A DNA stretch of 61,660 bases. It comes from Bacillota bacterium. Its GTDB lineage: Bacteria > Bacillota > UBA994. Below the pieces are notes generated by a model that had not been told where the DNA came from, did no database searches, and saw only the letters and a program-made list of their open reading frames with translations. This document shows positions 5,582 to 44,248 of the stretch, one piece after another. A program made the translations under genes and the position numbers. The stretch's first letter is position 1; each line of letters starts with the position of its first letter. The stretch spans positions 1 through 61,660 of the forward strand of contig JAGXTJ010000006.1 of assembly GCA_018333655.1 (NCBI GenBank), given 5' to 3'.

Positions 5582-7015
5582 CTACATTTTGCGGGCACGT
5601 AGAGCTAAAAAGAGAGGTATTTCTTCACGGGCCTTATCCATAGCTGCCTTTTTAGGGCCAGCTTGGTCCACTTTATGGCTAGTCCATTCATCCAGGCGAT
5701 CAACGAAAAGACCGGCATTGCCCAGAGTGTTGATATAGGCCTGTAAAGGTCGATGAAAATGGGTCGTCGTAGAACTACCCAAGCCGCGCGCCGCATCTCC
5801 GGGATGAGTAACAATGCTTACTTCGGCACTGCTTAGGTACTGGGAAACGACACGTTGCTGCTGCAAGGACTTTTCATGCCACATCCAATCAGAGTGGCGC
5901 GGTATCCGAAAACAGGGGTGCATCATAACTATAACGAGTGTTCCTTTTGGTTTAAGCAAGGACCACACCGCATGCCAGACCGGAGATAGCGGCGTCATGT
6001 TCTGGATACTGAGGACGATGGTCACCGCGTCAAAGCTACCAGGCCGCAGTCCATCTGCGGTCTTGCCTATACCCTCGATTAGCTTAGTGGCATCGGCCAC
6101 ACGATAATCTATGGACAAATTGTCTCCACTGTTGCGACGCTTGGCCGCGGCAATAAGTTCTGCAGCAGCGTCTATACCAACAACTTGACAGCCCTCCTTA
6201 GCCAAAGCACGACATAAGACGCCTTGTCCGCAAGCTATATCTAGTAGTCGCGGCTTGCCCGAGGTTATTTTGTCTAAGTTCAACAGGCGGAGGACTCCAG
6301 GCAGGATGACTTCACGATGATATTCGCTACCCTCGTCTCCCACATGCTTGTCATACCACAGTGCCACATCTCCCCAGTGCGTCTCCTCCGGCCGCCGCGG
6401 TGCAGGAGGCGGAGTTGTCTTTGGCAGGGGAGATCTAGGGGCGCGCTTCGTGGCCACCATATCTGCTTGGCGGTAGGCTGCATCAATCCGCTGGCTGCGC
6501 TCCGCTGGTTTGTCGTGGCTTATATTGCGTTGTTCCATTTTGACGTGAGCTTGCGTGCGTTGGTCTGGCCTGTCATACGGTTGTTTGCCTTGGTCTGACC
6601 TGCCATAGGGTTGTTTACCTTGGTCTGGCTTGCCATAGGCTTGTTTACTTTGGTCTGGCTTGCCATAGGCTTGTTTACTTTGGTCTGGCTTGCCATAGGC
6701 TTGTTTACTTTGGTCTGGCTTGCCATAGGCTTGTTTACTTTGACCTTGCTTGCCATAGGGCTGTTGGCGTTGATCCGGCCTTTCGTGGGGCGGTACTCGC
6801 TCGTCGGTTATACCGTAGGCGGGACTGCGCCTTTCGGCTTTTCCGTATGTTTGCTTGTTTTGATCGGGTTTACTATAGGTTTTTTGGCGCGATCTAGACC
6901 TGTCGGTAGATTGCTTTCGCAGAGTGCCAGAAGGAACGCCTCTCTCGGAAACATCCTCGCGCACGGTCTCTTTTCTATCTCCAAATGGCTTTTTAAAAGG
7001 TTTTTTGAATGGCAT
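5582..7015 (-). CDS. SAM-dependent methyltransferase with a long decapeptide-repeat N-terminus
   Basis: The protein has 477 residues. Residues about 41-170 form a strict 10-residue periodic region of the type DQSKQAYGKP, rich in Gln, Lys, Tyr, Gly and Pro and predicted to be disordered. A Pro/Arg linker follows (about 190-212). The class I methyltransferase domain starts near 213, with SAM motif I LLDIACGQG (257-265) and acidic loop GIDAA near 280-284. The fold and C-terminal pattern resemble small-molecule or UbiE-like methyltransferases; the substrate is unknown. ATG 7015 follows GAGGAGG by 7 bases; an upstream ATG at 7057 lacks this. The N-terminal PFKKPFKKPFGDRK resembles the basic tails of RNA-binding proteins, so nucleic-acid or ribosome association is possible but inferred. 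Confidence 0.85.
   Translation of the reverse strand: MPFKKPFKKPFGDRKETVREDVSERGVPSGTLRKQSTDRSRSRQKTYSKPDQNKQTYGKAERRSPAYGITDERVPPHERPDQRQQPYGKQGQSKQAYGKPDQSKQAYGKPDQSKQAYGKPDQSKQAYGKPDQGKQPYGRSDQGKQPYDRPDQRTQAHVKMEQRNISHDKPAERSQRIDAAYRQADMVATKRAPRSPLPKTTPPPAPRRPEETHWGDVALWYDKHVGDEGSEYHREVILPGVLRLLNLDKITSGKPRLLDIACGQGVLCRALAKEGCQVVGIDAAAELIAAAKRRNSGDNLSIDYRVADATKLIEGIGKTADGLRPGSFDAVTIVLSIQNMTPLSPVWHAVWSLLKPKGTLVIVMMHPCFRIPRHSDWMWHEKSLQQQRVVSQYLSSAEVSIVTHPGDAARGLGSSTTTHFHRPLQAYINTLGNAGLFVDRLDEWTSHKVDQAGPKKAAMDKAREEIPLFLALRARKM
6571..6780. repeat. 30-bp tandem repeats inside the methyltransferase gene
   Basis: Seven consecutive 30-bp units start at 6571, 6601, 6631, 6661, 6691, 6721 and 6751. 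The units at 6631, 6661 and 6691 are identical; the outer ones diverge step by step. The unit is a multiple of three, so copy-number change keeps the reading frame. It encodes one decapeptide per unit on the minus strand. Confidence 0.95.
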
Positions 7016-7081
7016 GTGTTGGCCCTCCTCGGCTGTATATATGGTGTAGTCTACCACAGGTAACGATGAATAGCCATTCTC

Positions 7082-9890: not shown

Positions 9891-10066
9891 GTTTTCCCTC
9901 CCCTTAGGTGACAACTTATTATACCAAAAAACGAGCACACAGTGATGCAAGGCGTGAGCCAATATACTTTTTATACTACAAACAACCAATGGCGCTACAA
10001 ATCATGGTACCATTGTTCTAGAATCGAATGATGCCGCTAGTGAAAATTTACACAGGAGGTCAGGCT

Positions 10067-11797
10067 ATGAAAGCACTCTTTACGGGCAACGAGGCCATTG
10101 CGCGAGGCGCCTACGAATATGGCGTAGCCGTGGCAACAGCATACCCAGGCACACCAAGTACCGAAATTCTAGAGAATATCAGCAAGTACAAAGAAATCAA
10201 AGCACAGTGGTCACCTAATGAAAAAGTAGCCATGGAAGTTGCAGCAGGTGCCTCCATTGCTGGGGCGCGTACTCTCGTTGCCATGAAGCATGTCGGTGTG
10301 AATGTCGCGGCCGACCCTTTATTCACCATGTCATACGCTGGGGTACAAGGTGGCCTTGTACTCGTTACAGCTGATGACCCAGGCATGCACAGCTCACAAA
10401 ATGAGCAAGATAACCGCTACTATGCCATGTTTAGTAAAATTCCCATGCTGGAGCCTAGCGATAGCCAAGAGGCCAAGGATTTTGTGGGGCACTCCCTCCT
10501 CCTCAGTGAGGAGTTTGATGTGCCAGTGCTCTTGCGCATCACCACGCGCATAGCTCACTCTAAGACTATTGTCTATCTAAACGAACCAATGGAGCGCCTT
10601 GTTAAGCCTTATACTAAGGACATACAAAAAAATGTCATGATACCTGCCCATGCGCGGCAAAAACGCCTCCTGCTTGAAGAACGCCATCGCCAACTCAAAG
10701 AGTATAGCGAAGCCACCCCCTTAAACCGCATTGAATGGCAGGACAAAAAAGTCGGTGTTATTACTTCAGGAATAAGCTATCAATATGTCAAAGAGGCTCT
10801 ACCCATGGCTTCTGTACTCAAACTCGGGTTTACCTGGCCATTACCAGAGAACCTTATCCGTAGCTTTGCCAGAGAAGTAGAGACTCTCTATGTCATTGAA
10901 GAGAATGAGCCTTACCTCGAAGAACAAATAAGAGCGCTCGGCCTGCAAGTGGAAGGAAAAGCCCTCTTCCCCATCATGGGTGAACTTTCCGCTACCATCA
11001 TTCGCCGCGCACTTGGTACTAGCGCCTTAGCAACAACTATTTCCTCGGTCAGGGTGCCCAATCGCCCACCCGTACTCTGCCCAGGCTGCCCACACCGCGC
11101 GGTGTTTTATGTCCTAAAGCAACTGCGCCTAGTTGTTACGGGCGATATTGGTTGCTACACGCTAGGTGCGCTTTCGCCCTTAGATAGCATGGATACGTGT
11201 ATTTGCATGGGGGCCTCCATACCCATGGCGTTAGGCTTCGAAAAAGCTCATCCGGAGCTCGCGGAAAAGACTGTGGCAGTAATTGGTGATTCCACCTTTG
11301 CGCATTCGGGGCTTACTGGTCTTATGGATATAGTCTACAACCAGGGTACCGCAACCGTTCTCATACTAGACAACAGCACGACGGCCATGACTGGGCATCA
11401 AGAGCATCCTGGCACCGGCAAAAGCCTTAGTGGAGAAACTACCCCGCAAATTGATATAGCTGCACTATGCCGTGCCATAGGCGTCAGCCGCACCTTCGTC
11501 GTCGACCCCTTTGAGATGGACGGTCTAAAAGACTTGCTGAAGAGAGAAGTAGCCACGCGGGAGCCCTCGGTCATTGTCGCTAGACGTCCCTGCGCCTTGA
11601 TAGTCAAACAAACAACAGAAGCCCTCGCCGTTGATGCGACAAAGTGCGTGGGCTGCAAGATGTGTGGGCGTATTGGCTGCCCTGCCATAAGCTTCGTCGA
11701 TAAGAAAAGCCATATCAACAGCTCTCTGTGCATAGGCTGTGGTCTATGTGTGGGGCTATGCAAGTTTGGCGCTATAGCGAAGGAGGTCCGCTCATGA
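10067..11797 (+). CDS. iorA: Indolepyruvate:ferredoxin oxidoreductase alpha subunit
   Basis: The 576-residue subunit oxidatively decarboxylates aryl pyruvates to acyl-CoA with ferredoxin as acceptor, during aromatic amino acid fermentation. It shows the N-terminal pyrimidine-binding domain (ALFTGNEAIARGAYEYG), the CPGCPHR motif, the TPP/Mg motif GDSTFAHSGLTGL followed by DNSTTAMTG, and a C-terminal ferredoxin domain with CVGCKMCGRIGCP and CIGCGLCVGLC. ATG 10067 has AGGAGG 8 bases upstream, so the open codons before it are excluded. It overlaps iorB by 4 bp (ATGA). The first C-terminal cluster has the irregular spacing common to IorA. Confidence 0.97.
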   Translation: MKALFTGNEAIARGAYEYGVAVATAYPGTPSTEILENISKYKEIKAQWSPNEKVAMEVAAGASIAGARTLVAMKHVGVNVAADPLFTMSYAGVQGGLVLVTADDPGMHSSQNEQDNRYYAMFSKIPMLEPSDSQEAKDFVGHSLLLSEEFDVPVLLRITTRIAHSKTIVYLNEPMERLVKPYTKDIQKNVMIPAHARQKRLLLEERHRQLKEYSEATPLNRIEWQDKKVGVITSGISYQYVKEALPMASVLKLGFTWPLPENLIRSFAREVETLYVIEENEPYLEEQIRALGLQVEGKALFPIMGELSATIIRRALGTSALATTISSVRVPNRPPVLCPGCPHRAVFYVLKQLRLVVTGDIGCYTLGALSPLDSMDTCICMGASIPMALGFEKAHPELAEKTVAVIGDSTFAHSGLTGLMDIVYNQGTATVLILDNSTTAMTGHQEHPGTGKSLSGETTPQIDIAALCRAIGVSRTFVVDPFEMDGLKDLLKREVATREPSVIVARRPCALIVKQTTEALAVDATKCVGCKMCGRIGCPAISFVDKKSHINSSLCIGCGLCVGLCKFGAIAKEVRS

Positions 11798-12369
11798 AAA
11801 CACTAAACATCCTATTGGTAGGTGTCGGGGGCCAGGGCACCATCCTCGCCTCCAAGATCTTGGCCGAAGTCGCCATGATGCAGGGCTTAGACGTCAAGAT
11901 GTCCGAAATTCACGGCATGGCTCAACGCGGCGGCAGTGTAGTTACACAAGTACGCATGGGCGAGAAGATTTACGGGCCCGTTATCGATGAAGGTGAGGCC
12001 GACTTTATAGTCGCCTTTGAGAAACTCGAAGCACTGCGCTGGATACATTACCTGCGGCCGGGCGGCGTGGTCGTGGTCAACAACCAGCAGATTGACCCCA
12101 TGACAGTGATTACCGGCCAATTTGTTTACCCCCCAGAGATCTTAGATACTCTGCTGGAGCGTGCCGATGATGTCAATATCTTAGACGCGCTACAATTAGC
12201 AAGAGAGGCCGGAAGCGCTAAAACAGTCAATGTGGTGCTACTAGGTGCTCTAGCCCGCAAAATGGAGATCCCCAAGGAGGATTGGCACGAAGCTATTCGC
12301 CGCACAGTAGCACCCGCCTTTCTCGCTCTTAACATGGCGGCTTTTAGCGCCGGTCTAAAAGAGGCGTAA
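11794..12369 (+). CDS. iorB: Indolepyruvate:ferredoxin oxidoreductase beta subunit
   Basis: This 191-residue gamma/beta-type domain protein begins MKTLNILLVGVGGQGTILAS and carries the family signatures VGGQG and SEIHGMAQRGGSV. It pairs with IorA to form the indolepyruvate oxidoreductase. Its ATG overlaps the iorA stop and is preceded by GGAGG, so the two are translationally coupled. The operon ends at the terminator after 12380. Confidence 0.96.
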   Translation: MKTLNILLVGVGGQGTILASKILAEVAMMQGLDVKMSEIHGMAQRGGSVVTQVRMGEKIYGPVIDEGEADFIVAFEKLEALRWIHYLRPGGVVVVNNQQIDPMTVITGQFVYPPEILDTLLERADDVNILDALQLAREAGSAKTVNVVLLGALARKMEIPKEDWHEAIRRTVAPAFLALNMAAFSAGLKEA

Positions 12370-12379
12370 CACAAAATCA

Positions 12380-12420
12380 TCAAAAGGCTGACTAGTGCCT
12401 AGGGCACCAGTCAGCCTTTC
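12380..12420. terminator. Bidirectional terminator between iorB and the membrane-protein cluster
   Basis: AAAGGCTGACTAGTGCC pairs with GGCACCAGTCAGCCTTT (one mismatch) around a 4-base loop. It is flanked by A-rich and T-rich sequence. It sits between two convergent transcription units and can serve both. Confidence 0.88.
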
Positions 12421-12440: not shown

Positions 12441-13079
12441 CTAAATGATACCTAGCCAGGTACTGAGCAACGTGGTTAGTTGACCCAGTAGTAGCGAGAT
12501 ACGTCCGGCAACAACGTTACCGAAAGATACCCCGAAGGTAATCATCATCACCCAACGGCCAGCTTGCGAAATTCTCTTGACTGGACCACTCTGAGGTATG
12601 GAGAAGACAAAGTAGGTCAGGACCACCAAGACACCAAAGACGATGAGGAAATTATCAAATGTCCTGTTGAGCAAGAAGTTACCAGCCGTATCGTGCACTA
12701 TGATGTCAATCATCGTCGCCCTAGCTTGCAGAATAGCTTGCGAGTTCAGCGATGTAAAGAGCGATAATCCCACACCATTACCCACCAAGTAGGCAATCGG
12801 CCAGCGGCTGACCCACGCATAGCCCTTGATAAAGCGCGCGTACAACATCAGACCTAGGACGAACGGAACAATAAAGTGCCACTCGTTCCTAGTCGTCAAC
12901 GGCACATAGCCAAAGCGATGGATGTTGCCGATAGCGGTACCAATAGCGTGACCAGCCGTTGAGCCCACGAAAACGTGTTCTGCAAAGCGATAAATGGGGT
13001 TCTCCTTGTAGATGAAGGAGAATATAGCCAGCATGCATGCTGCCATTACCCAAGTCCAAACACTCATGGAAATATTCAC
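12441..13079 (-). CDS. Uncharacterised polytopic membrane protein (gene 4 of membrane cluster)
   Basis: A 212-residue protein with about five or six hydrophobic segments and conserved-looking polar patches: YRFAEHVFVGSTAGHAIGTAIGNIHRFG and YARFIKGYAWVSRWPIAYLVGNGVGL. The His, Arg and Gly content inside membrane segments is unusual for a simple scaffold and suggests a transport or ligand-binding role, but no known family is recognised. It follows the two-anchor protein at 13133 by 53 bp. It is the last gene of a four-gene operon ended by the terminator at 12380-12420. Confidence 0.85.
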   Translation of the reverse strand: MNISMSVWTWVMAACMLAIFSFIYKENPIYRFAEHVFVGSTAGHAIGTAIGNIHRFGYVPLTTRNEWHFIVPFVLGLMLYARFIKGYAWVSRWPIAYLVGNGVGLSLFTSLNSQAILQARATMIDIIVHDTAGNFLLNRTFDNFLIVFGVLVVLTYFVFSIPQSGPVKRISQAGRWVMMITFGVSFGNVVAGRISLLLGQLTTLLSTWLGII

Positions 13080-13132
13080 TGTTTCACCTCCTCTATAGTG
13101 GTGAGGTATCTATTAAATGATTCTGATCTAAA

Positions 13133-13948
13133 CTAGTTCTTCTTGCTAAAGAAGTAGGCCACGTTACCAACAATGATAAAGGCGACAATGATTAAGTGCC
13201 CTATGGACTGCGCATCCATCATGGCAGCACCCTGTCCGATAATGCCGGTTAGCTGCTCGTATTCGGCTGCACCGCGCAGACCTCCTAAAAGACCCTTCAT
13301 TTGCCCTGAGGATACGAAAGGCATGGCGGCAGGTACACTCACGGTAACGACAGCCGCGGCGAACTTCACGCCCATGGGGTCGACAGCTTGGCGAATGAAG
13401 GCATTGTAGCCAGGGTCGCCAGCAGAGAGACCGATGACGAAGGCGAAGTCATTCATGTCTACTATGCCATCCATCAGGGTGAGAGCATCAATGTTGTTGC
13501 CCCGCACATCTGTTTTAATAACGCGAGAATCCTGAGCGAAGGACATGATGGCGTTCTCGCCACCGGCCATAAAGCCGAGGTCAATGAAATCTTCGCCATA
13601 CGTTAGACCGCGTGCTTCTAAATCGCGCATAATCATTTCCGACATCTGTGGACCTTCCGGCCAGAAAGATACGGCAACCCATCTAATACCACGCGCAGTC
13701 AAATGCTCGACAAGGGCGACAGACGCAGGATGCAGATCGGGAGCGCTCGCCGGAGAATAGTCGAACGACAACAGCACTACATCAGTGGCCGGATCTAGGT
13801 CTTCAATAATATTGTAAATAGAACGAGTGACCTCTTGCGTCGACAACGGAATACCTATCGGCCAGATGAGGGGAACAATCAAGCCAATCATCAAGATAGT
13901 GTAAATAATTCTGCGGTCGATATTCTGTAATTGTTTGGCCCAGTTCAT
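13133..13948 (-). CDS. Uncharacterised membrane-anchored protein with large soluble domain (gene 3)
   Basis: The 271-residue protein has a membrane helix near residues 15-33, a soluble domain of about 200 residues and a second helix near 250-267 followed by FSKKN. The soluble part alternates strands and helices: VVLLSFDYSPASAPDLHP, IRWVAVSFWPEG, FAFVIGLSAGDPGYNAF, KFAAAVVTVSVPAAMPFVSSGQMKGLLGGLRGAAEYE. This looks like a Rossmann-like alpha/beta fold. It may lie outside the membrane between two anchors. Function unknown. The same plan (helix, soluble domain, helix) is seen in gene 1 of the cluster, and both are followed by a multi-helix protein. Confidence 0.85.
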   Translation of the reverse strand: MNWAKQLQNIDRRIIYTILMIGLIVPLIWPIGIPLSTQEVTRSIYNIIEDLDPATDVVLLSFDYSPASAPDLHPASVALVEHLTARGIRWVAVSFWPEGPQMSEMIMRDLEARGLTYGEDFIDLGFMAGGENAIMSFAQDSRVIKTDVRGNNIDALTLMDGIVDMNDFAFVIGLSAGDPGYNAFIRQAVDPMGVKFAAAVVTVSVPAAMPFVSSGQMKGLLGGLRGAAEYEQLTGIIGQGAAMMDAQSIGHLIIVAFIIVGNVAYFFSKKN

Positions 13949-13978
13949 CTAAGGGCACCTCCTTTCTCTAAGAATGGA

Positions 13979-14635
13979 TTACTCGCCACCGAGATATCCG
14001 CGTTCAAGTCCGAAGAGGATGCGCAAGCTCGTGGCAAAGCCGCCGATGGCCGCCCCGATAATAATAGCGCGTTGACCTGCTGTGTTGGGCACTGCCAAGA
14101 GCCAGCGTTGCAAGCTTGGAAAGTAGTCCCAAATAATAGCACCGATAGGAGCTGCGCCCAACATTACCACAATAGCTGCTACCAAGAGCACCGACGCCTC
14201 TAAGCTACGGGCGCGGAAGGCACGGTAGGAAGCTGAGGCAATGTAGAACGCTAGGATGGCGAACATCGCACCCGAAAGAGGAGCAGCGATATTGTCGAAG
14301 ATACGGCTGTAGAAAGCTACTATGTCTGGGTCAGCGGGCCTGAGCTCGCGAATCGTACGAGCCACAGTGAAAAATAGCATTGAGAAAACGAGAGCTGCGC
14401 TGTTAATCCAGCCTGGACGCTTGCGAGCTACATAGTTGCCGTGTAGACGAAGCAGGTTAACCGACGCTAGACCAATGGCGAACGCGGAAATGATAGTCGT
14501 CCACGGGCTCAAGTAAACGCTGACGATCTCACGGAACTGCATCCCCACGAGCGGAACATCACCAGTAGTGATGGGACCAAACAAGAAGATTACACCCACC
14601 AAGAAAGTTATAAAAAGTGGAATTTCTCTACGCAA
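13979..14635 (-). CDS. Uncharacterised polytopic membrane protein (gene 2)
   Basis: A 218-residue protein with about six predicted helices and a C-terminal tail ERGYLGGE. Notable features are the periplasmic-looking loop RELRPADPDIVAFYSRIFDNI and an Arg-rich short loop after helix 2 (RLHGNYVARKRPGW). No known family is recognised. It lies 77 bp after gene 1 and 30 bp before gene 3, in the same direction, with an SD sequence before each. Confidence 0.85.
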   Translation of the reverse strand: MRREIPLFITFLVGVIFLFGPITTGDVPLVGMQFREIVSVYLSPWTTIISAFAIGLASVNLLRLHGNYVARKRPGWINSAALVFSMLFFTVARTIRELRPADPDIVAFYSRIFDNIAAPLSGAMFAILAFYIASASYRAFRARSLEASVLLVAAIVVMLGAAPIGAIIWDYFPSLQRWLLAVPNTAGQRAIIIGAAIGGFATSLRILFGLERGYLGGE

Positions 14636-14712
14636 CTGTTACACCTCCTTTTTGAGGATTATCTATTAGTAACCATAGTTCACACTACTTGACAAGAAGA
14701 ACTCTTATAGTA

Positions 14713-15495
14713 CTACTTAACGAGTAGTACTCGCAGCCAATCGTTACCAGCGGTCATCATGACGGCACCGACAAAAATCACAGCCATCAAGGCGAGCTTA
14801 ATATAGTCTTGAGAGGCAATACTGCCCAGCCTGACCTTATCTTGCGATAGGTAGGCGCCACCGGCGTAAATTTCTTCTCCGATGAGGGTGTAGTCACACG
14901 CGGCGACAAAGAAGGGAATTTGATGCATATTCGCAGTTCCAGCCACCTGAATGGCACCAACTTGGGCACCACCTTCTGCCATCAAGAGAGATTCAGCCCA
15001 GAAGGCACCGATCATCAAGTTAGCAGCCACGCGCTGACGGGCGAAAATACCTAGTACACCGGCGATGTACGCAAACTGCTCGCTAGAGAGAAAGCGCACC
15101 GTGTCCTCTTTGAAAAGGTCTGTCTTTCCGGCAGCCATGTATCCCTGACGCACAACTTCCTGAGCGAGAGGAAAAACGTTAGGAATGCGGATACTGACGA
15201 TGAGCTCTGCGTTGTACTTGGCAGAAAGGCCTGTTACATAGCCGAGCACCTCGAGTGCGGCGAAGGTTTGGGGGGCAGTGTCACCAGTGACGTCGGCAAT
15301 TCCAGGGGAGAAGTGCACCGGCTTGCCCATTTCAGTAGCACGACCGATAGCCTCTTCAATAGCCTCCAGACCAGCGATGCGACGGAGTTTTACTACGAAC
15401 TTACCATCCTTGGCCAACTTTACGATTAACAGAATGCAGATAGAGACAAAAAGCATCGTCCAAAAACCAAAAATATTACCCGGGACTAATTTCAT
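14713..15495 (-). CDS. Uncharacterised two-anchor membrane protein, DUF6754-like (gene 1)
   Basis: The 260-residue protein has an N-terminal helix (about 8-27), a basic soluble domain (about 30-230) and a C-terminal helix (about 236-253). The soluble part includes KPVHFSPGIADVTGDTAPQ, AELIVSIRIPNVFPLAQEVVRQGY and AEGGAQVGAIQVAGTANMHQIPFFVAACDYTLIGEEIYAGGAYLS. I recall this pattern as the DUF6754 family, with no known function; that match is from memory. An AGGGAGGTG ribosome binding site precedes ATG 15495. As the first gene it probably defines the operon. Confidence 0.85.
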   Translation of the reverse strand: MKLVPGNIFGFWTMLFVSICILLIVKLAKDGKFVVKLRRIAGLEAIEEAIGRATEMGKPVHFSPGIADVTGDTAPQTFAALEVLGYVTGLSAKYNAELIVSIRIPNVFPLAQEVVRQGYMAAGKTDLFKEDTVRFLSSEQFAYIAGVLGIFARQRVAANLMIGAFWAESLLMAEGGAQVGAIQVAGTANMHQIPFFVAACDYTLIGEEIYAGGAYLSQDKVRLGSIASQDYIKLALMAVIFVGAVMMTAGNDWLRVLLVK

Positions 15496-15854
15496 TTTTT
15501 CACCTCCCTATTTTTTATATATCAATCCCCTGCCTAGACAAGGGAAAATTAAGCCCCTCACGCATAACTATTTGCCGTGCGCATCGCATATTCCTGCAGC
15601 ATGGGTAAAAATATTTATTGAGGATACTTGCCACACTTCAACGCATATTTCGACAAATTGTGACACCCTCATATTAACAGACAGCTTGGCCAAAGAAAAA
15701 TGCCGCCACTTAAAGCTACCTTCTGCACACTACCCCGCTCTCATTTTACATAGCTTTAACGCTCTATTTCTCAACTACATCTCCGTAAGTGACGTAAATT
15801 TCTGCTGAATTGAAAGAACCTAGCTCAATTAAGGCTAAGTTCTTTCGCGCCTTC
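15496..15854. other. Gene-free region upstream of the membrane cluster
   Basis: About 360 bp with no convincing gene on either strand; a plus-strand frame across it overlaps the cluster's first gene and has no ribosome binding site. It should hold the minus-strand promoter of the cluster, but I see no consensus promoter. An imperfect inverted repeat at 15812-15846 (GAAAGAAC / GTTCTTTC arms, with inner TAGC/GCTA) lies just past the holin stop and may terminate that transcript, though it lacks a clear T-run. Confidence 0.6.
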
Positions 15855-16316
15855 TTACTCGGCCTCACGCCGCGCTGCCCGTCTAAGTTGCGCTAGCAAA
15901 GGTGCCAGATTAGGCAGTCCCGCCGCAACTAGGTTTTCGAGAATGCTTATGCTTTCGACGGTAAAAAGGAAGCCGTAGACCAAGGTCTTGCTCATGACGG
16001 CAACTACTTCTGTACCCGCCACATGTTCTACTTGCGCACAGAGGACACCCAGCGTAAAGTAGGCCACTAGCTTGATAAAAGTACCCCGAAAAGCTTTTTT
16101 GCTTGAAATTTCACCCGCTGTCAGCGCCACCATGAAGCCACCTTTTTGGGCCGAAATCGCCACCAGCTTGCTAACTAGGTCGAGCATAACGGCAATCCAC
16201 ACAGCAAGAAAGGCGGCGTCTGGCTCCACGAGGTAGTAGATGATGGACCATACTAGGCCGAGCAACCTAATTGTGGGCGGACGCAAAGTCTCTCTTAAAC
16301 TCTCGAAAAGCTGCAT
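15855..16316 (-). CDS. Phage-holin-like membrane protein (holin_4 type)
   Basis: The 153-residue protein has three or four hydrophobic segments, with LDLVSKLVAISAQKG and EISSKKAFRGTFIKLVAYF matching the D-x2-(S/T)K ... SSKK-x2-G-x3-K pattern of the toxin-secretion/phage lysis holin family. Many Bacillota carry chromosomal copies unlinked to prophages. No endolysin or phage structural gene is close. It shares orientation with the DUF2922 and DUF1659 genes upstream, an association common in spore-formers. Confidence 0.75.
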   Translation of the reverse strand: MQLFESLRETLRPPTIRLLGLVWSIIYYLVEPDAAFLAVWIAVMLDLVSKLVAISAQKGGFMVALTAGEISSKKAFRGTFIKLVAYFTLGVLCAQVEHVAGTEVVAVMSKTLVYGFLFTVESISILENLVAAGLPNLAPLLAQLRRAARREAE

Positions 16317-17395: not shown

Positions 17396-18739
17396 CTACC
17401 TTGTGGCTTTAAGGGTGCTAATTCCTAGCGCGCATTCAATCCGTTTTTTTTGCAAGACGCAGGCTAAGGCGTCGGGCTTGAGGAAGTTGCCATGAGCATA
17501 GAAGGCAGAAGCATGGCAACCGCCACTGCAGTAGAGTTTAGCCCAGCACGCCAGGCAGTCTGGTTTACGGTAAACATTCACTTGCGCGAGTTCACGCGGC
17601 AAGTCTAGGTTTACCAAGCCCTCAAACACTGTTCCCAATTTAAATGGCTCGTTCCCCACAAATTGATGGCAGGGGTAAATATCACCATCTGGTGTTATTG
17701 CCACATAATCCCACCCGGCACCACAACCTATAATGCGTTTGCCGAAGCACGGCCCGTTATAGGTTGCCACATTGAAATGAAAAAAATTAAAGGGGTCCCC
17801 GTTTTCTTGTTTCTCTAGGTAAAAATCTGTCAAACGATCGTATTCCCGACATAGAGCCTCCTCGTGTTCCCTAGTTAAGGCGAACGATTCACCTGCTCCG
17901 CCCACTACCGGCTCAAGTGAAATCTCCCGCAACCCTAGCTCATAGAGATGCTCTACGTCCCTGGCAAAATCGAGATTGTGAGCGGTATAGGTACCGCGCA
18001 CAAAGTAATTTTTTCCACCACGACTAGCGACGAATTTAAGGATAGCCTCGCTTACTGACGCGTAACTACCGACATCGTCGGCAAAAGGGCGCAAGAAATC
18101 GTTAACTGCGGCCCGCCCGTCTAGGCTCAGCACCACAGACATTTGGTTTTCATTGAGAAAACTTGTTTCCTCCTCCCCGAGCAAGGTGCCGTTCGTCGTC
18201 AGGGTGAAACGGAGAATTTTGTTTTCTTTCTCTGCCTCTTTGCGGCCATAAGCAACTATCTCTTTGACGACAGCAAAGTTTAGCAGTGGTTCACCACCAA
18301 AAAAATCGACCTCGAGATGTTTGCGGCTACCAGACGAACGCAAAAGAAAGTCTATGGCCGCCTTGCCTGTTTCTACATCCATCAAAGTGCGTCCACCGCC
18401 AAAGTTGCCGGTAGCGGCAAAGCAGTACTTACAGCGCAAATTGCAGTCGTGGGCGACATGCAGGCACAAGGCTTTGACCTGCGGGCTGTCCTCGGCGAAC
18501 TCTGGTTCTTGCGGCAGGGCGACATTTAAAAGCCCTTCATCACAAAGGGCTTTCACTTCTTCAAGAGCTACGTCAATGTCAGCGGGAGAAAAACGAGCGC
18601 TGAGTTTCTGCCTTACTTCACTTGGCGAAGCTTGGCCGTAACTTTTAATAACCTCTCCTGCTAGCTCGTCTACGGCAAACAGGGAGCCGGTGATGGGGTC
18701 TAAAACTAAAGTCGTGCCGCGAAAAGTAAATACGTGCAC
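17396..18739 (-). CDS. scfB: SCIFF peptide radical SAM maturase (thioether-forming)
   Basis: The 447-residue radical SAM enzyme has the cluster motif C-x3-C-x2-C (CNLRCKYC), an N-terminal peptide-recognition (RRE-like) domain (about 1-80) and a C-terminal SPASM domain with Cys-rich motifs (CGAGWDYVAITPDGDIYPCHQF and CLACWAKLYCSGGCH). It installs Cys-to-Thr thioether crosslinks in the SCIFF precursor encoded just upstream. I choose GTG 18739, which gives the family's usual opening (HVFTFRGTTLVLDPITG) and lies one base after the scfA stop, suggesting coupling. A TTG at 18772 would overlap scfA. Confidence 0.95.
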   Translation of the reverse strand: MHVFTFRGTTLVLDPITGSLFAVDELAGEVIKSYGQASPSEVRQKLSARFSPADIDVALEEVKALCDEGLLNVALPQEPEFAEDSPQVKALCLHVAHDCNLRCKYCFAATGNFGGGRTLMDVETGKAAIDFLLRSSGSRKHLEVDFFGGEPLLNFAVVKEIVAYGRKEAEKENKILRFTLTTNGTLLGEEETSFLNENQMSVVLSLDGRAAVNDFLRPFADDVGSYASVSEAILKFVASRGGKNYFVRGTYTAHNLDFARDVEHLYELGLREISLEPVVGGAGESFALTREHEEALCREYDRLTDFYLEKQENGDPFNFFHFNVATYNGPCFGKRIIGCGAGWDYVAITPDGDIYPCHQFVGNEPFKLGTVFEGLVNLDLPRELAQVNVYRKPDCLACWAKLYCSGGCHASAFYAHGNFLKPDALACVLQKKRIECALGISTLKATR

Positions 18740-18740
18740 G

Positions 18741-18887
18741 CTAGTTCTTGTTTTGGCAGACCTGATTGCCAACGGTGCAAGAAGTCTTGCAGGCAGATTG
18801 ACATGAAGTTTGGCATTCCCTGCAGGCGGTGTTTTTTTCGGTAGCTATGATGCTGCCTTTTACTAGGGTCTTGATGTGTTTATTCAT
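18741..18887 (-). CDS. scfA: SCIFF ribosomally made peptide precursor
   Basis: A 48-residue peptide starting MNKHIKTLVKGSIIATEKN with exactly six cysteines (22, 25, 29, 33, 37, 44) in its C-terminal half. This is the 'six cysteines in forty-five' signature. The leader motif and Thr/Ser between the cysteines are the thioether acceptors and context expected by the maturase encoded next. The ATG has GGGGGG 8 bases upstream. SCIFF is nearly universal in Clostridia, and its biological role is still unresolved. Confidence 0.95.
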   Translation of the reverse strand: MNKHIKTLVKGSIIATEKNTACRECQTSCQSACKTSCTVGNQVCQNKN

Positions 18888-40159: not shown

Positions 40160-40957
40160 CTAGTAAGTTAACAGATCTCTGTCCTGCCAATCCGTAATAA
40201 ACATGTGCCCGGGCGCGTGAGTTATAACTAGCTGTGGTTTAGCACGCATTATTACAGCTTGCGGTGTGCACCCGCAAGCCCAGAACACAGGGATCTCACC
40301 GGGTAAAACATCAACCGCCTCACCCATATCGGGCTTTGACAGGTCTACGATGCCTAAGCTAAGCGGGTCACCAATATGCACGGGGGCCCCGTGCACAGCG
40401 TGGTAACGCGAAGTTACTTGCACCGCCTTAGCTACCATACTCGGTAACATGGGGCGCATACTCACTACCAGTGGACCCTGCATAATGCCTGCCGTTTGGC
40501 ACGGTCTATTGGTAATATACATAGGCACGTTGCGCTGCATAGTGATATGTCTAACTTCGATGCCCGCTTCCTGCAGGGCTGACTCAAACGTAAAGCTGCA
40601 GCCCAGAAGGAAGCTGACAAAGTCGTTTTGCCAGTACTTACTGATATCAGTCGGCTCATCAATTAGTTCACCATACCGATAAACTCTATACTTGGGCAGG
40701 TCGGTCCGCAAGTCTGAGCCAGGGGCAGTCTCTTTCGCCTCATAGCAGCCCAATTCGGTTACTTCGAGGATGGGACAAGGCTTTGGATTGCGCTGGCAAA
40801 AAAGCAGAAAATCATAGGCCAACTCTTTTCTCAGTATGACCAAGTTAGCTTGTGCCAAGCCAGGGGCGAGACCAGCTGTAGTTGCCACCTCATGCCCCGC
40901 ACGAAACAGCTCACGCCATGCTGCTCCACTCCTGCTCGCCATATTGCTAAAGCTCAA
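40160..40957 (-). CDS. DUF1445 putative hydro-lyase (YcsI family)
   Basis: The 265-residue protein has the family motifs PCPILEVTELGCYEAK, DLRTDLPKYRVYRYGEL, FVSFLLGCSFTFESAL, NVPMYITNRPC and PVFWACGCTPQ. DUF1445 members are putative hydro-lyases related to D-glutamate cyclase, which makes 5-oxoproline from D-glutamate. The context fits: it is the last gene of the 5-oxoprolinase operon, overlapping pxpC by 4 bp. The TTG at 40957 is the likely start; an ATG lies 15 bases further in. In Bacillus subtilis ycsI sits in the same operon as the kip genes. Confidence 0.9.
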   Translation of the reverse strand: MSFSNMASRSGAAWRELFRAGHEVATTAGLAPGLAQANLVILRKELAYDFLLFCQRNPKPCPILEVTELGCYEAKETAPGSDLRTDLPKYRVYRYGELIDEPTDISKYWQNDFVSFLLGCSFTFESALQEAGIEVRHITMQRNVPMYITNRPCQTAGIMQGPLVVSMRPMLPSMVAKAVQVTSRYHAVHGAPVHIGDPLSLGIVDLSKPDMGEAVDVLPGEIPVFWACGCTPQAVIMRAKPQLVITHAPGHMFITDWQDRDLLTY

Positions 40958-41970
40958 ATCTCGCTCACCTCCGCACGGACTCTACTTCCCTGTAGTAAAA
41001 CCTGAAAGATGCGACTAGGAGCGGGGCGCCTTGGCAGGCGAGCCAGCTTGTCTTCGCTGTTAACGAGTGCCTGCACGGCTGCCTCATAGTTTACGGCCAC
41101 AAATTGCACTCTATCCTGTGGCTTCATTTGCCCGAGCAGCGATAAGTCGGCACCAATGACGGTAGCAATTTTAGCGTATCCTCCTGTAGTCTGCCTATCA
41201 GCGAGCATGATCGTCGGTTGTCCATTCCCTGCCACCTGAATACTACCTGGAGCGATACCATCGCTAATTACGTCAGCCATGACTGAGCTAACGAGCACTT
41301 CCCCCGCCAGCCGGTACCCCATGCGGTCTGCCTGATGTGAAATCTGATAACTACCCGCACACAAGGTTTCTAAAGTCGCGGCCGGGAACAAACTGCTTTG
41401 TGGGCCTAGCATCACCCGTATAGGCGTCACAGCTACGGGTAGCACTGACTGATCCTCTTGCAGAGCAAAGTTTCCCACTGTCTTAAGGCGTTCGCGAGTA
41501 GCGGCAACAAGGGGCAAAATATCTCGTGCACGCAGTACTCGTCCGTGAAAACCACCCCAACCGCCACCGAGAAAGGTGGAACGACTGCCCAAAAGAAGCG
41601 GCACGTCAAGGCCCCCCGCCACACAGAGATAGGCTCGCGCACCTCTTTCAACCTCGCCAAGACTTAACTCATCGCCTTCACCGAGGTAGAGCGCCTCCCA
41701 CTGTGGAACACGCTGACCATTCTTAAACACCTTTAACTTCGCACCTGTCACGGCCATAACGGTCTCACCCCTGACTATGAGCCTTGGCCCCTGCAGGGTG
41801 ACCTCAAGCGCGGCCAAGTGATCCTCATTGCCGACCAGGCGGTTGCCAGCTCGCAAAGAATAAGTATCCATCGCGCCCCCGACTGGAACACCAACTTGCT
41901 GGTAGCCCTGCCGCCCTAGATCTTGCACCGTGGTCAGGAAACCTGGGTCGAGGACAGTAAGGCTAGCCAT
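40954..41970 (-). CDS. pxpC: 5-oxoprolinase subunit C (biotin-dependent carboxyltransferase-like, KipA)
   Basis: The 338-residue protein has the allophanate hydrolase subunit 2-like fold: LTVLDPGFLTTVQDLGRQGYQQVGVPVGGAMD at the start, AGGLDVPLLLGSRST, RMGYRLAGEVL and MLADRQTTGGYAKIATVIGADL. With PxpA and PxpB it hydrolyses 5-oxoproline to glutamate with ATP. Its ATG overlaps the pxpB stop by 8 bp and has GGAGG upstream. Confidence 0.95.
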   Translation of the reverse strand: MASLTVLDPGFLTTVQDLGRQGYQQVGVPVGGAMDTYSLRAGNRLVGNEDHLAALEVTLQGPRLIVRGETVMAVTGAKLKVFKNGQRVPQWEALYLGEGDELSLGEVERGARAYLCVAGGLDVPLLLGSRSTFLGGGWGGFHGRVLRARDILPLVAATRERLKTVGNFALQEDQSVLPVAVTPIRVMLGPQSSLFPAATLETLCAGSYQISHQADRMGYRLAGEVLVSSVMADVISDGIAPGSIQVAGNGQPTIMLADRQTTGGYAKIATVIGADLSLLGQMKPQDRVQFVAVNYEAAVQALVNSEDKLARLPRRPAPSRIFQVLLQGSRVRAEVSEI

Positions 41971-42694
41971 GAGACACCTCCATCAGCTCAGTATAGGGAC
42001 TGAACTGCCCCGCCCGGAGAAGAGCGACGATGGTATGATATTCAGATAAGGAAACTGACCTAAACCGCACCCATTGCCCCGCCCGAAGTAGACTTGGTTG
42101 GCTGCGGTGGGGGTCAAAAAGGCAGAGTGGGGTATGCCCTATAATCCGCCACCCGCCTGGGCTAGCGAGCGGGTAAACACCGGTCTGCTGCATGGCGATG
42201 GCGACTGAACCTGCTGGCACCTTGGTGCGTGGCACTTTGAGGCGCGGCAGGGAGAGCCGCGGGTCGAGCCCGCCCAGGTAGGGGTAGCCCGGCAGAAATC
42301 CGATCATGTAGACAGGATAGGGGCGTGACGTATGCAAAAGAATAACCTCGTCAACAGACATCGCTGTTTCTTTGGCCACCTCTAGCATGTCTAGGCCCCA
42401 CTCTCCACCATACAAGACCGGTATTTCGACTACTTCTTGACTCTCACTAGAGCACGAGAGGGACAAAGTGCCCATGCTCTCGCATACCTCCCGTAGCTCA
42501 CTCCGCGTGATAGATAAAGGGCAGTAAGAAATCATAAGAGAGCGATAGGTGGGCAGTACTTCCCGTAGCCAAGGGGCACCGAGGTTTTGCAGCGCTTTTC
42601 CTAGAGCGTGCACCTCACGGTTAATACTCGGGTCAATGGTATCGCCAAATTCAACGATAAGATGGCTTTCACCGGCGTCGAAATAATGTCGCAT
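41963..42694 (-). CDS. pxpB: 5-oxoprolinase subunit B (KipI)
   Basis: The 243-residue protein matches allophanate hydrolase subunit 1/KipI: GESHLIVEFGDTIDPSINREVHAL, EIPVLYGGEWGLDMLEVA, YMIGFLPGYPYLGGLDPRLSLPR and GVYPLASPGGWRIIGHTP. In Bacillus, KipI also inhibits the sporulation kinase KinA. A PAS kinase gene is in this window (587-1720), but no link is shown. It is 4 bp after pxpA. Confidence 0.95.
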   Translation of the reverse strand: MRHYFDAGESHLIVEFGDTIDPSINREVHALGKALQNLGAPWLREVLPTYRSLMISYCPLSITRSELREVCESMGTLSLSCSSESQEVVEIPVLYGGEWGLDMLEVAKETAMSVDEVILLHTSRPYPVYMIGFLPGYPYLGGLDPRLSLPRLKVPRTKVPAGSVAIAMQQTGVYPLASPGGWRIIGHTPLCLFDPHRSQPSLLRAGQWVRFRSVSLSEYHTIVALLRAGQFSPYTELMEVSHG

Positions 42695-42698
42695 ATCC

Positions 42699-43472
42699 TT
42701 AGCCTCGGGTAAGGGGAGAGAGGGCTACGCCTAGCTCAGTCATGAGCGAGCGAAGGCCACTGGCGAACTCGACCGCCGGCGCACTGTCGCCATGCACACA
42801 AATGGTATCTGCCGCAATAGCCACTTTTTCTCCCGTCAGAGACGTGACACAGCCCGTGGTGAGCAGTTCTCGTACCTGTTCCTTGGCCTCAGTAAAACTG
42901 TGATAAAGTGCCAGAGGATGGCTACGCGGCACCAAGCTACCATCTGCATGGTAGCGTCGGTCGGCAAAGGCCTCGCGCGCGACACAGAGCCCTTCGCTGA
43001 GCCCAGCCTCAATAAGTTTGCCACCGGCAAGACCAACTAGAGTCAGCCCCCCGTCAACTGCGCGTACGGCCCGCGCCACGGCAGAGGCTAAGGTTATATC
43101 GGCGGAAGCGGCATTGTAGAGAGCCCCATGAACTTTAACATGAGTACCCTCTATTTTAAGAGACTTTGCTACACCAAGAAATGCCCCCACTTGGTAGACC
43201 ACGGCATCGTAAACCTCACCGGGAGTGAGTTGCATGGGTCGTCGCCCAAACCCGATTAAGTCAGGATACCCAGGGTGAGCCCCAACACTTAGCTCTTTAG
43301 CTTTAGCCAGGGCTATAGTCTCACGCATAGTGCTAGGGTCGCCAGCGTGAAAGCCACAGGCGATACTAATTGACGAGACGTATGGCATGAGCTCGCGCTC
43401 AAAACCTAGCCGATAAACGCCAAAACCCTCACCCATGTCGCAGTTAAGGTCACATGAAGTCATAGGCATCAC
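42699..43472 (-). CDS. pxpA: 5-oxoprolinase subunit A (LamB/YcsF family)
   Basis: The 257-residue protein opens with DLNCDMGEGFG and contains SISIACGFHAGDPSTM, SVGAHPGYPDLIGFGRR and GTHVKVHGALYN, all typical of PxpA. It is the metal-dependent subunit of the ATP-driven 5-oxoprolinase. GTG 43472 overlaps the iclR stop by 1-4 bases, so the regulator and enzyme are co-translated. An ATG lies three bases further in. Confidence 0.95.
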   Translation of the reverse strand: MMPMTSCDLNCDMGEGFGVYRLGFERELMPYVSSISIACGFHAGDPSTMRETIALAKAKELSVGAHPGYPDLIGFGRRPMQLTPGEVYDAVVYQVGAFLGVAKSLKIEGTHVKVHGALYNAASADITLASAVARAVRAVDGGLTLVGLAGGKLIEAGLSEGLCVAREAFADRRYHADGSLVPRSHPLALYHSFTEAKEQVRELLTTGCVTSLTGEKVAIAADTICVHGDSAPAVEFASGLRSLMTELGVALSPLTRG

Positions 43473-44248
43473 AATTTGCTCTCCTTGGCTACGAAGCCTA
43501 GCTCCTGCGACAAGGCCCTCACCGAGCGCTGCAAGGCTCGGACTAAGTAATCGCGCTTTTCGGGGATAAAGCTTCCTAGAGGGCCGGCAATGCTGATACT
43601 AGCAACTACTCTATCGGTATGATCGCGAACTGGCATGGCTATGGCTGCTGTCCCCTCGTGCAGTTCGCCTAGACTAAGAGTATAGCCCTGCTCTCGCTCC
43701 TGCCTCATCACTTCTTCTAGAGCAGAAGCAGTAGCTGGGGTTGTGGCGGTGACAGCGACAAACTTAAGTTGCGCTACAATTTCGGCCCTCTCGCGCTCTG
43801 GCAAGAAGGCAAGCAAAGCGCGAGGGCACGCGCCAGCATAGAGAGGAGCACGGCGGCCGATGCGAGTGTAGAGGCGCACGGGGTGGCTCGTCTCCCTCTT
43901 TTCAATATAAACACCTTCTAAGCCATCGCGTATCACTAGGTTGACGGCCTGGTCTGCCATCACGGACAGCTCTTCCATGTAGGGGATGGCAGCGGCCCGC
44001 ACATCGAGGCGTTCGGCGACCAAGTTACCTAATTCTAAGAGCTTCATGCCCAGACAGTAGGCCTTGCTCTTGTCGCGCATAAGAAAGCCCTTGTCTTCGA
44101 GCGTGTTAAGCAGACGCAAAGCCGTTGGCTTAGAGAGATCCGCGAGCTCGGCAACCTGTCGCAGGGTCAGACGAGGTCTCTCGACGGTGAATAGTTCGAG
44201 CACCATTAGTCCTTTGGCAAAAGTAGTCGCAATCGCCATGGCAGCCAC
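43469..44248 (-). CDS. IclR-family transcriptional regulator of the pxp operon
   Basis: The 259-residue protein has an N-terminal winged helix (VLELFTVERPRLTLRQVAELADLSKPTALRLLNTLEDKGFL) and a C-terminal effector domain (VNLVIRDGLEGVYIEKRE, GRRAPLYAGACPRALLAFL). It is first in the pxp operon, as kipR is near the kip genes in Bacillus, so it likely autoregulates and represses the operon. Just upstream, around 44262-44287, GGAATCCCGTTACCGATAACAA includes a GTTA-N4-TAAC palindrome, a candidate operator. Confidence 0.92.
   Translation of the reverse strand: MAAMAIATTFAKGLMVLELFTVERPRLTLRQVAELADLSKPTALRLLNTLEDKGFLMRDKSKAYCLGMKLLELGNLVAERLDVRAAAIPYMEELSVMADQAVNLVIRDGLEGVYIEKRETSHPVRLYTRIGRRAPLYAGACPRALLAFLPERERAEIVAQLKFVAVTATTPATASALEEVMRQEREQGYTLSLGELHEGTAAIAMPVRDHTDRVVASISIAGPLGSFIPEKRDYLVRALQRSVRALSQELGFVAKESKL

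Follow-up and report, generated by a model that had tools for sequence, protein, structure and literature searches.

A conserved DUF6754 membrane-protein quartet and its GlmL-like ATPase partner as a candidate uptake system in bacteria and archaea

In this study, we asked what is encoded by four adjacent genes, here called A, B, C, and D, in a stretch of 61,660 nucleotides from an anaerobic, amino-acid-fermenting Bacillota bacterium (assembly GCA_018333655.1, contig JAGXTJ010000006.1; the whole stretch is hereafter the window). Only A belongs to a named family, DUF6754 (PF20539), and that label carries no function. A-B-C-D is one conserved envelope unit, which co-occurs with a module of two further genes, E and F, and usually also with a small third gene, S. 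The ABCD/E-F architecture is well supported. The reading that we favor, in which we place about as much belief as doubt, is that ABCD and E-F, judged by their sequences, may form an uptake system with exchangeable ABCD units and a shared E-F ATPase module; transport and substrate are the parts that we infer.

Gene layout and conservation of the quartet

The four open reading frames (ORFs) lie on the minus strand in the transcription order A-B-C-D, separated by intergenic gaps of 77, 30, and 53 bp, and in all four a strong Shine-Dalgarno sequence (AGGAGGTG or GGGAGGTG on the coding strand) precedes the start by 5–10 bp. No terminator-like site in the region is stronger than the one just 3′ of D, an inverted repeat that may also serve the convergent gene on the opposite strand. 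The features are as follows (aa, amino acids; TM, transmembrane).

14713-15495, minus strand: gene A, DUF6754 protein of 260 aa, start ATG (PF20539 match)
13979-14635, minus strand: gene B, ~6-TM protein of 218 aa, start TTG (from hydropathy; without known family)
13133-13948, minus strand: gene C, 2-TM protein with an alpha/beta domain, 271 aa, start ATG (without known family)
12441-13079, minus strand: gene D, ~6-TM protein of 212 aa, start GTG (from hydropathy; without known family)
15501-15508, minus strand: ribosome-binding site of A, GGGAGGTG on the coding strand (read from the sequence)
14642-14649, minus strand: ribosome-binding site of B, AGGAGGTG (read from the sequence)
13956-13964, minus strand: ribosome-binding site of C, AAGGAGGTG (read from the sequence)
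13085-13092, minus strand: ribosome-binding site of D, AGGAGGTG (read from the sequence)
12382-12420, minus strand: intrinsic terminator closing the ABCD unit, 18 pairs of which 9 are G-C, loop of 3 (terminator scan)

Profiles of the four proteins were built from ORFs called mechanically, with a crude caller, in approximately 100 loci. Among the Bacillota and archaeal loci read, the intact quartet was found 68 times and in no other order; a few of the 68 count one genomic position twice, and 64 are distinct in sequence. Because the same four-gene order recurs 68 times, the quartet is not due to chance. Where the string is incomplete, the cause seems to be a contig edge or a gene missed by the crude ORF caller. 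Pairwise distances among A, B, C, and D correlate at 0.85–0.89, and the four therefore travel together. A first-pass annotation of the sequence had described four co-directional genes, each with its own ribosome binding site, and a shared terminator at the end of the unit. All four ORFs, the four Shine-Dalgarno sequences, and the 18-pair terminator just after D are present, and the neighborhood survey recovered the quartets rather than the lack of conservation that would speak against a system.

Of 299 genomes sampled from the same phylum, 25 contain PF20539, as do all 15 genomes searched from the class to which the window belongs, and also archaea labeled Bathyarchaeota, Culexarchaeum, Thermococci, and Methanosarcinales. 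It was found in none of the 14 well-studied control genomes, which would explain how the system escaped notice. Scored by matches to A, among which there may be a few fragments, copy number rises to nine per genome (G289 and G507). Genome G289 carries seven tandem ABCD units within 23 kb (L070/L071, G289:C1:2074364-2096929), and the window's genome has a single unit.

Gene A encodes a clear DUF6754 member (PF20539, E=2.6e-90, 302.5 bits against a gathering score of 27, residues 11-254), a family that the first-pass annotation had named correctly. B, C, D, F, and S fall outside it, and B, C, and D gave no match above the cut-off in Pfam or NCBIfam. Pfam, NCBIfam, and PDB profile searches detected no cofactor-binding or catalytic family in A-D, and PDB profile searches with A-F returned nothing significant. 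A literature search found no paper on DUF6754, GlmL with ASKHA, "GlmL family", or PF13941. The view of the quartet as uncharacterized apart from DUF6754 thus stands, since no profile search matched all four proteins to a described complex. A has many invariant polar residues (R52, E55, C200-D201, and E208) and is the best conserved of the four, with a mean identity among homologs of 44% compared with 35–36% for B, C, and D, which fits contact with a shared partner.

The E-F module

Clustering of neighboring genes revealed a pair that recurs beside ABCD in both domains of life, namely E (GlmL/MutL-type, PF13941) and F, a soluble protein of ~370 aa whose N-terminal region is barrel-sandwich-like and whose C-terminal stretch is KOW-like. 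S, a small protein with one moderately hydrophobic segment, often accompanies them. The first-pass annotation saw the four membrane-protein genes only; this ATPase and accessory half is encoded elsewhere in the genome and was missed. In the window's genome, an S-E-F operon lies on contig C53 (locus L108), apart from ABCD.

L108 10112-10417, minus strand: S (E-F-S operon)
L108 8111-9940, minus strand: E (PF13941)
L108 6975-8093, minus strand: F (E-F-S operon)

On its sequence, E is assigned to a long form of GlmL/MutL-type ASKHA ATPase. It matches the full PF13941 model far over the cut-off (429.8 bits against 27, E=1.6e-128; the copy in the window's genome, E=4.0e-125) and keeps ASKHA-type motifs. 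It differs from GlmL/MutL in its length of ~610 aa compared with ~460, including ~120 extra C-terminal residues, in being encoded with F, S, and ABCD, and in its scores below the NCBIfam cut-offs for GlmL (235.8 against 475), OR-4 (218.1 against 600), and the GlmL subfamily (175.9 against 204). No B12 mutase (GlmS/GlmE) was recognized by eye in the E neighborhoods read, of which not every neighbor was profiled. A second MutL-family protein of 460 aa (L109, G000:C13, 7961-9343, plus strand) lies in an apparent ornithine aminomutase cluster and, in contrast to E, appears by eye to be of the ordinary OR-4 type. The N-terminal region of F weakly resembles RnfC/NqrA and biotinyl-type barrel-sandwich proteins (RnfC_N and Biotin_lipoyl; the best copy reached 7.7e-06 for RnfC_N, and the other tested copies were below the Pfam cut-off). 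F differs from these proteins in ending in the KOW-like stretch (a weak NusG match, E=0.028), and it has no significant match to a solved protein.

A is found in 25 of 299 genomes, F in 24, and both in 23. The hypergeometric probability of this co-occurrence is 5e-31 by genome and 1e-13 by family, with the number of families taken as 119, itself a lower bound. The exceptions are G019, which is 78% complete, G095, which has a divergent A, and G009, which has F only. Of 200 genomes of an archaeal phylum, 4 have A and these same 4 have F, although two of them were already known as carriers. F was also present in all 10 ABCD genomes reached via the locus search. In several bacterial genomes (L056-L060 and L064), ABCD is immediately followed by E-F, and E or E-F adjoins ABCD in archaea (L113, L115, L116, and L120).

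The archaeal genomes G370, G441, and G300 have 7, 6, and 7 copies of A, respectively, and exactly one E and one F each. Since six to seven copies of A stand against one E and one F, it is probable from the gene counts that, in these archaea at least, several ABCD units share a single E-F module. Bacteria with many ABCD units have extra, more divergent E and F copies.

Variations on the module were also seen. Fermentithermobacillaceae loci L112, L118, and L119 carry a tandem duplicate, E2-F2-E-F, with a longer F2 (~475 aa) and, in L112 and L119, with S in between. In many bacteria, a membrane protein of 174–243 aa is encoded upstream of E (L108 10462-10986, minus strand; L111 4501-5163, plus strand; L112 4129-4860, plus strand) and is possibly a further subunit. 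In archaea, different small membrane proteins are encoded near E (L115, L037, and L117).

Topology and structure of the membrane proteins

Hydropathy averaged over homologs gives 2, ~6, 2, and ~6 TM segments for A, B, C, and D, respectively, or ~16 TM helices per unit. In A and C, two hydrophobic anchors flank a domain of ~200 residues, which in C spans residues ~34-246. This agrees with the alternation of two-anchor and multi-helix proteins described in the first-pass annotation. Sidedness was predicted by counting lysine plus arginine residues on both sides in each homolog, with TM boundaries set on the window proteins; the homologs are not independent observations. For A, 70 of 76 homologs were predicted to have the N-terminus outside (N-out) and six were ties, with none N-in, which places the domain in the cytosol. 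For C, 70 of 71 were N-in with one tie and none N-out, and the domain is predicted to be outside. All 70 homologs of B were N-in (predicted N-in/C-in), and 73 homologs of D were N-out, with two ties and none N-in (predicted N-out/C-out). A and C, as well as B and D, are therefore predicted to be oppositely oriented. A cytosolic A domain and an external C domain contradict the first-pass claim that both soluble domains are on the same side of the membrane, to which no homolog lent support.

AlphaFold2 models of A and C, built from alignments of 22–23 sequences, are both confident (predicted local distance difference test scores, pLDDT, of 87 and 91, respectively) and show an alternating alpha/beta domain between two TM helices, with the elements in the same order. 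Matches of the C model to G-protein-coupled receptors in a Foldseek search of the PDB are most likely due to crystallization fusions and are not meaningful. Profile comparisons with small and deep alignments and reversed decoys gave no significant homology between A and C: there is an in-register match of residues 54-146 with 51-136 (P=0.003), but its probability is only 10%. The B/D comparison scored below the reversed decoy. Profile comparison therefore does not support the duplicated architecture proposed in the first-pass annotation for B and D, and it leaves a weak hint for A and C, whose shared order of secondary-structure elements is itself weak evidence of homology.

The seven-unit array of G289 bears on which subunit would recognize a substrate. 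In its units 1 and 6 (the count along the contig starts at 0), A, B, and D are 97–98% identical, with synonymous divergence (dS) of 0.10–0.21, whereas C is 82% identical with a dS of 0.88, and the differences are spread over the whole protein. The raised dS points to exchange, or failed homogenization, of C alone rather than to fast amino-acid change. Such divergence of C only would suit a recognition subunit.

Genomic neighborhood and substrate hints

The neighbors of ABCD are often genes of amino-acid, peptide, or amide catabolism. Genes for gamma-glutamyltranspeptidase, a PALP enzyme, coenzyme A transferase, amidohydrolases, BKACE, amidase, and CN hydrolase lie beside ABCD copies, as do M20, PmbA/TldD, DUF885, C26, and M14 genes and several aminotransferase genes. 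In a distal control, approximately 3 of the 23 most distal genes of similar loci looked by eye like amino-acid metabolism. E-F in the window's genome adjoins genes for a C26 peptidase and a PALP enzyme. For Culexarchaeia, one of the archaeal groups concerned, the capacity to ferment peptides and amino acids has been described (PMC9723716). If ABCD is an uptake system, its substrates would be small organic nutrients, probably amino acids, organic acids, or compounds derived from peptides or amides. A lack of peptide- or LIV-type ATP-binding cassette (ABC) importers was also considered as an argument about the substrate, two archaeal genomes having 0–1 SBP_bac_5 genes. It was dropped because G000 and G289 carry many such genes.

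Proposed mechanism and alternatives

We propose a mechanism for the candidate uptake system based on its gene content and predicted topology. The external domain of C would recognize the substrate, and B and D, with ~6 TM segments each, would form the path across the membrane. The cytosolic domain of A would couple E-F to the membrane part, and this shared module would bind and hydrolyze ATP to drive or gate the cycle, E supplying the ATP-driven motion. Genomes could then gain substrates by adding ABCD units while one E-F module is kept. The first-pass annotation had supposed one envelope complex, perhaps a transporter; the conserved quartet supports the complex and leaves the transporter plausible.

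The system resembles known importers in outline only. Group II energy-coupling factor (ECF) transporters likewise have one energizing module common to many membrane units (here suggested by gene counts of 7, 6, and 7 A to one E and one F). However, A-F had no match to ABC_tran, A-F and S had none to EcfA, EcfT, or an S-component (Pfam and NCBIfam), the energy module would be an ASKHA protein, and the parts are unrelated. ABC importers with a substrate-binding protein share the combination of two multi-TM proteins, an external alpha/beta domain, and a cytosolic ATPase. ABCD/E-F differs from these importers in lacking not only the ABC_tran match but also any match of B or D to the Pfam permease domain (BPD_transp), and the domain of C is TM-anchored at both ends and has no binding-protein fold match. 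By Pfam and NCBIfam, no subunit is an ABC, ECF, or other cataloged transporter protein, and we rate the system as categorically new in composition. A bolder version, which we hold only tentatively and consider rather unlikely, is a new class of primary transporter in bacteria and archaea, with an ATPase of the ASKHA superfamily instead of an ABC ATPase, two oppositely oriented halves in each modular ABCD unit, and one shared E-F motor for all units of the cell.

Several points weigh against transport. We know of no transporter that uses an ASKHA ATPase, and E might, by analogy, maintain ABCD rather than power it. Foldseek searches with the A and C models against the PDB gave no match at E<=1e-3 and low TM-scores, so that no transporter fold was recognized. 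The divergence of C only is a single case. The enrichment of catabolic neighbors was assessed by eye, with a distal control that was small and non-blind, and the carrier organisms are amino-acid fermenters anyway. The window's genome, with its one ABCD unit, has plentiful ABC-type importers.

The chief alternative, which we regard as unlikely, is that ABCD is a membrane-bound enzyme complex that catalyzes a step of amino-acid or organic-acid breakdown. Its active form would be maintained by E-F, with E as an ATP-driven reactivating chaperone in the manner proposed for its relatives GlmL and OR-4. For GlmL, a characterized relative of E, a chaperone role in restoring a B12 enzyme to activity has been described (PMC4682846). 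The match of E to the Pfam MutL model (1.6e-128), the position of ABCD units amid catabolic genes, and the invariant R52, E55, C200-D201, and E208 of A would all be in keeping with this. However, A-D lack any detected cofactor-binding or catalytic family, prediction places the variable subunit C outside, and six to seven divergent copies per E-F suit interchangeable importers better than many different enzymes. The same variable external domain, tandem copies, and single cytosolic module are also typical of receptor families, and ABCD could be a sensory array whose receptors signal through A to an ATPase- or kinase-like E-F. We consider such an array quite improbable because ~16 TM helices per unit are far above the needs of a receptor; moreover, no output domain was found in E or F by Pfam and NCBIfam searches, and the units adjoin catabolic genes.

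Two further explanations concern the relation between the halves of the unit. A+B and C+D could be distant homologs in opposite orientation, forming a pseudo-symmetric antiparallel complex as in alternating access, an arrangement compatible with the uptake system that we favor. The exactly opposite predicted orientations of A and C and of B and D, the paired 2-TM and ~6-TM architectures, and the A/C profile hint (P=0.003) would agree with it. An alternating alpha/beta order is common and is weak evidence of homology, and similarity of B and D was not detected by profile comparison, so that we think this origin improbable as well. The version of the first-pass annotation, in which homologous paired modules have both soluble domains on one side of the membrane, draws on the shared two-anchor architecture, the common succession of helices and strands in the models of A and C, and the weak in-register A/C match. 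It is already contradicted on sidedness by the unanimous opposite topologies, the B/D match scores under its reversed decoy, and we regard it as very improbable.

If the uptake model is right, amino-acid-fermenting anaerobes, both bacterial and archaeal, would use a transport machine outside all known classes, driven by a type of ATPase not known to drive transport, and DUF6754 and long GlmL-like proteins would gain a function. Should the system prove not to be a transporter, seven genes that co-occur almost perfectly over two domains of life and lack a described function still make a concrete target for experiments.

Other genes in the window

Other genes noted in the window are the following.

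15855-16316, minus strand: Phage_holin_4_1 protein (PF05105, 2.7e-10), just upstream of A, as also in L032, L068, and L092
16364-16609, minus strand: DUF2922 protein (PF11148, 2.5e-23), adjoining the holin-like gene
10028-12369, plus strand: indolepyruvate:ferredoxin oxidoreductase-like pair (iorAB-like, by eye), convergent with ABCD
17396-18772, minus strand: 458-aa protein resembling a radical S-adenosylmethionine (SAM) peptide maturase, with a cysteine-rich C-terminal end (by eye)
5582-7057, minus strand: 491-aa ORF containing a long series of KPDQSKQAYG-type decapeptide repeats that are nearly identical to one another
40954-43472, minus strand: apparent 5-oxoprolinase pxpA/B/C cluster, with an IclR-type regulator upstream at 43469-44248 (by eye)

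The holin-like gene is not counted in the system because its recurrence is limited to the closest relatives. The iorAB-like pair is a local neighbor that fits amino-acid fermentation, and the radical-SAM-like protein is conserved near ABCD in relatives of the same family. In the 491-aa ORF, the repeats are followed by an apparent SAM-dependent methyltransferase domain.

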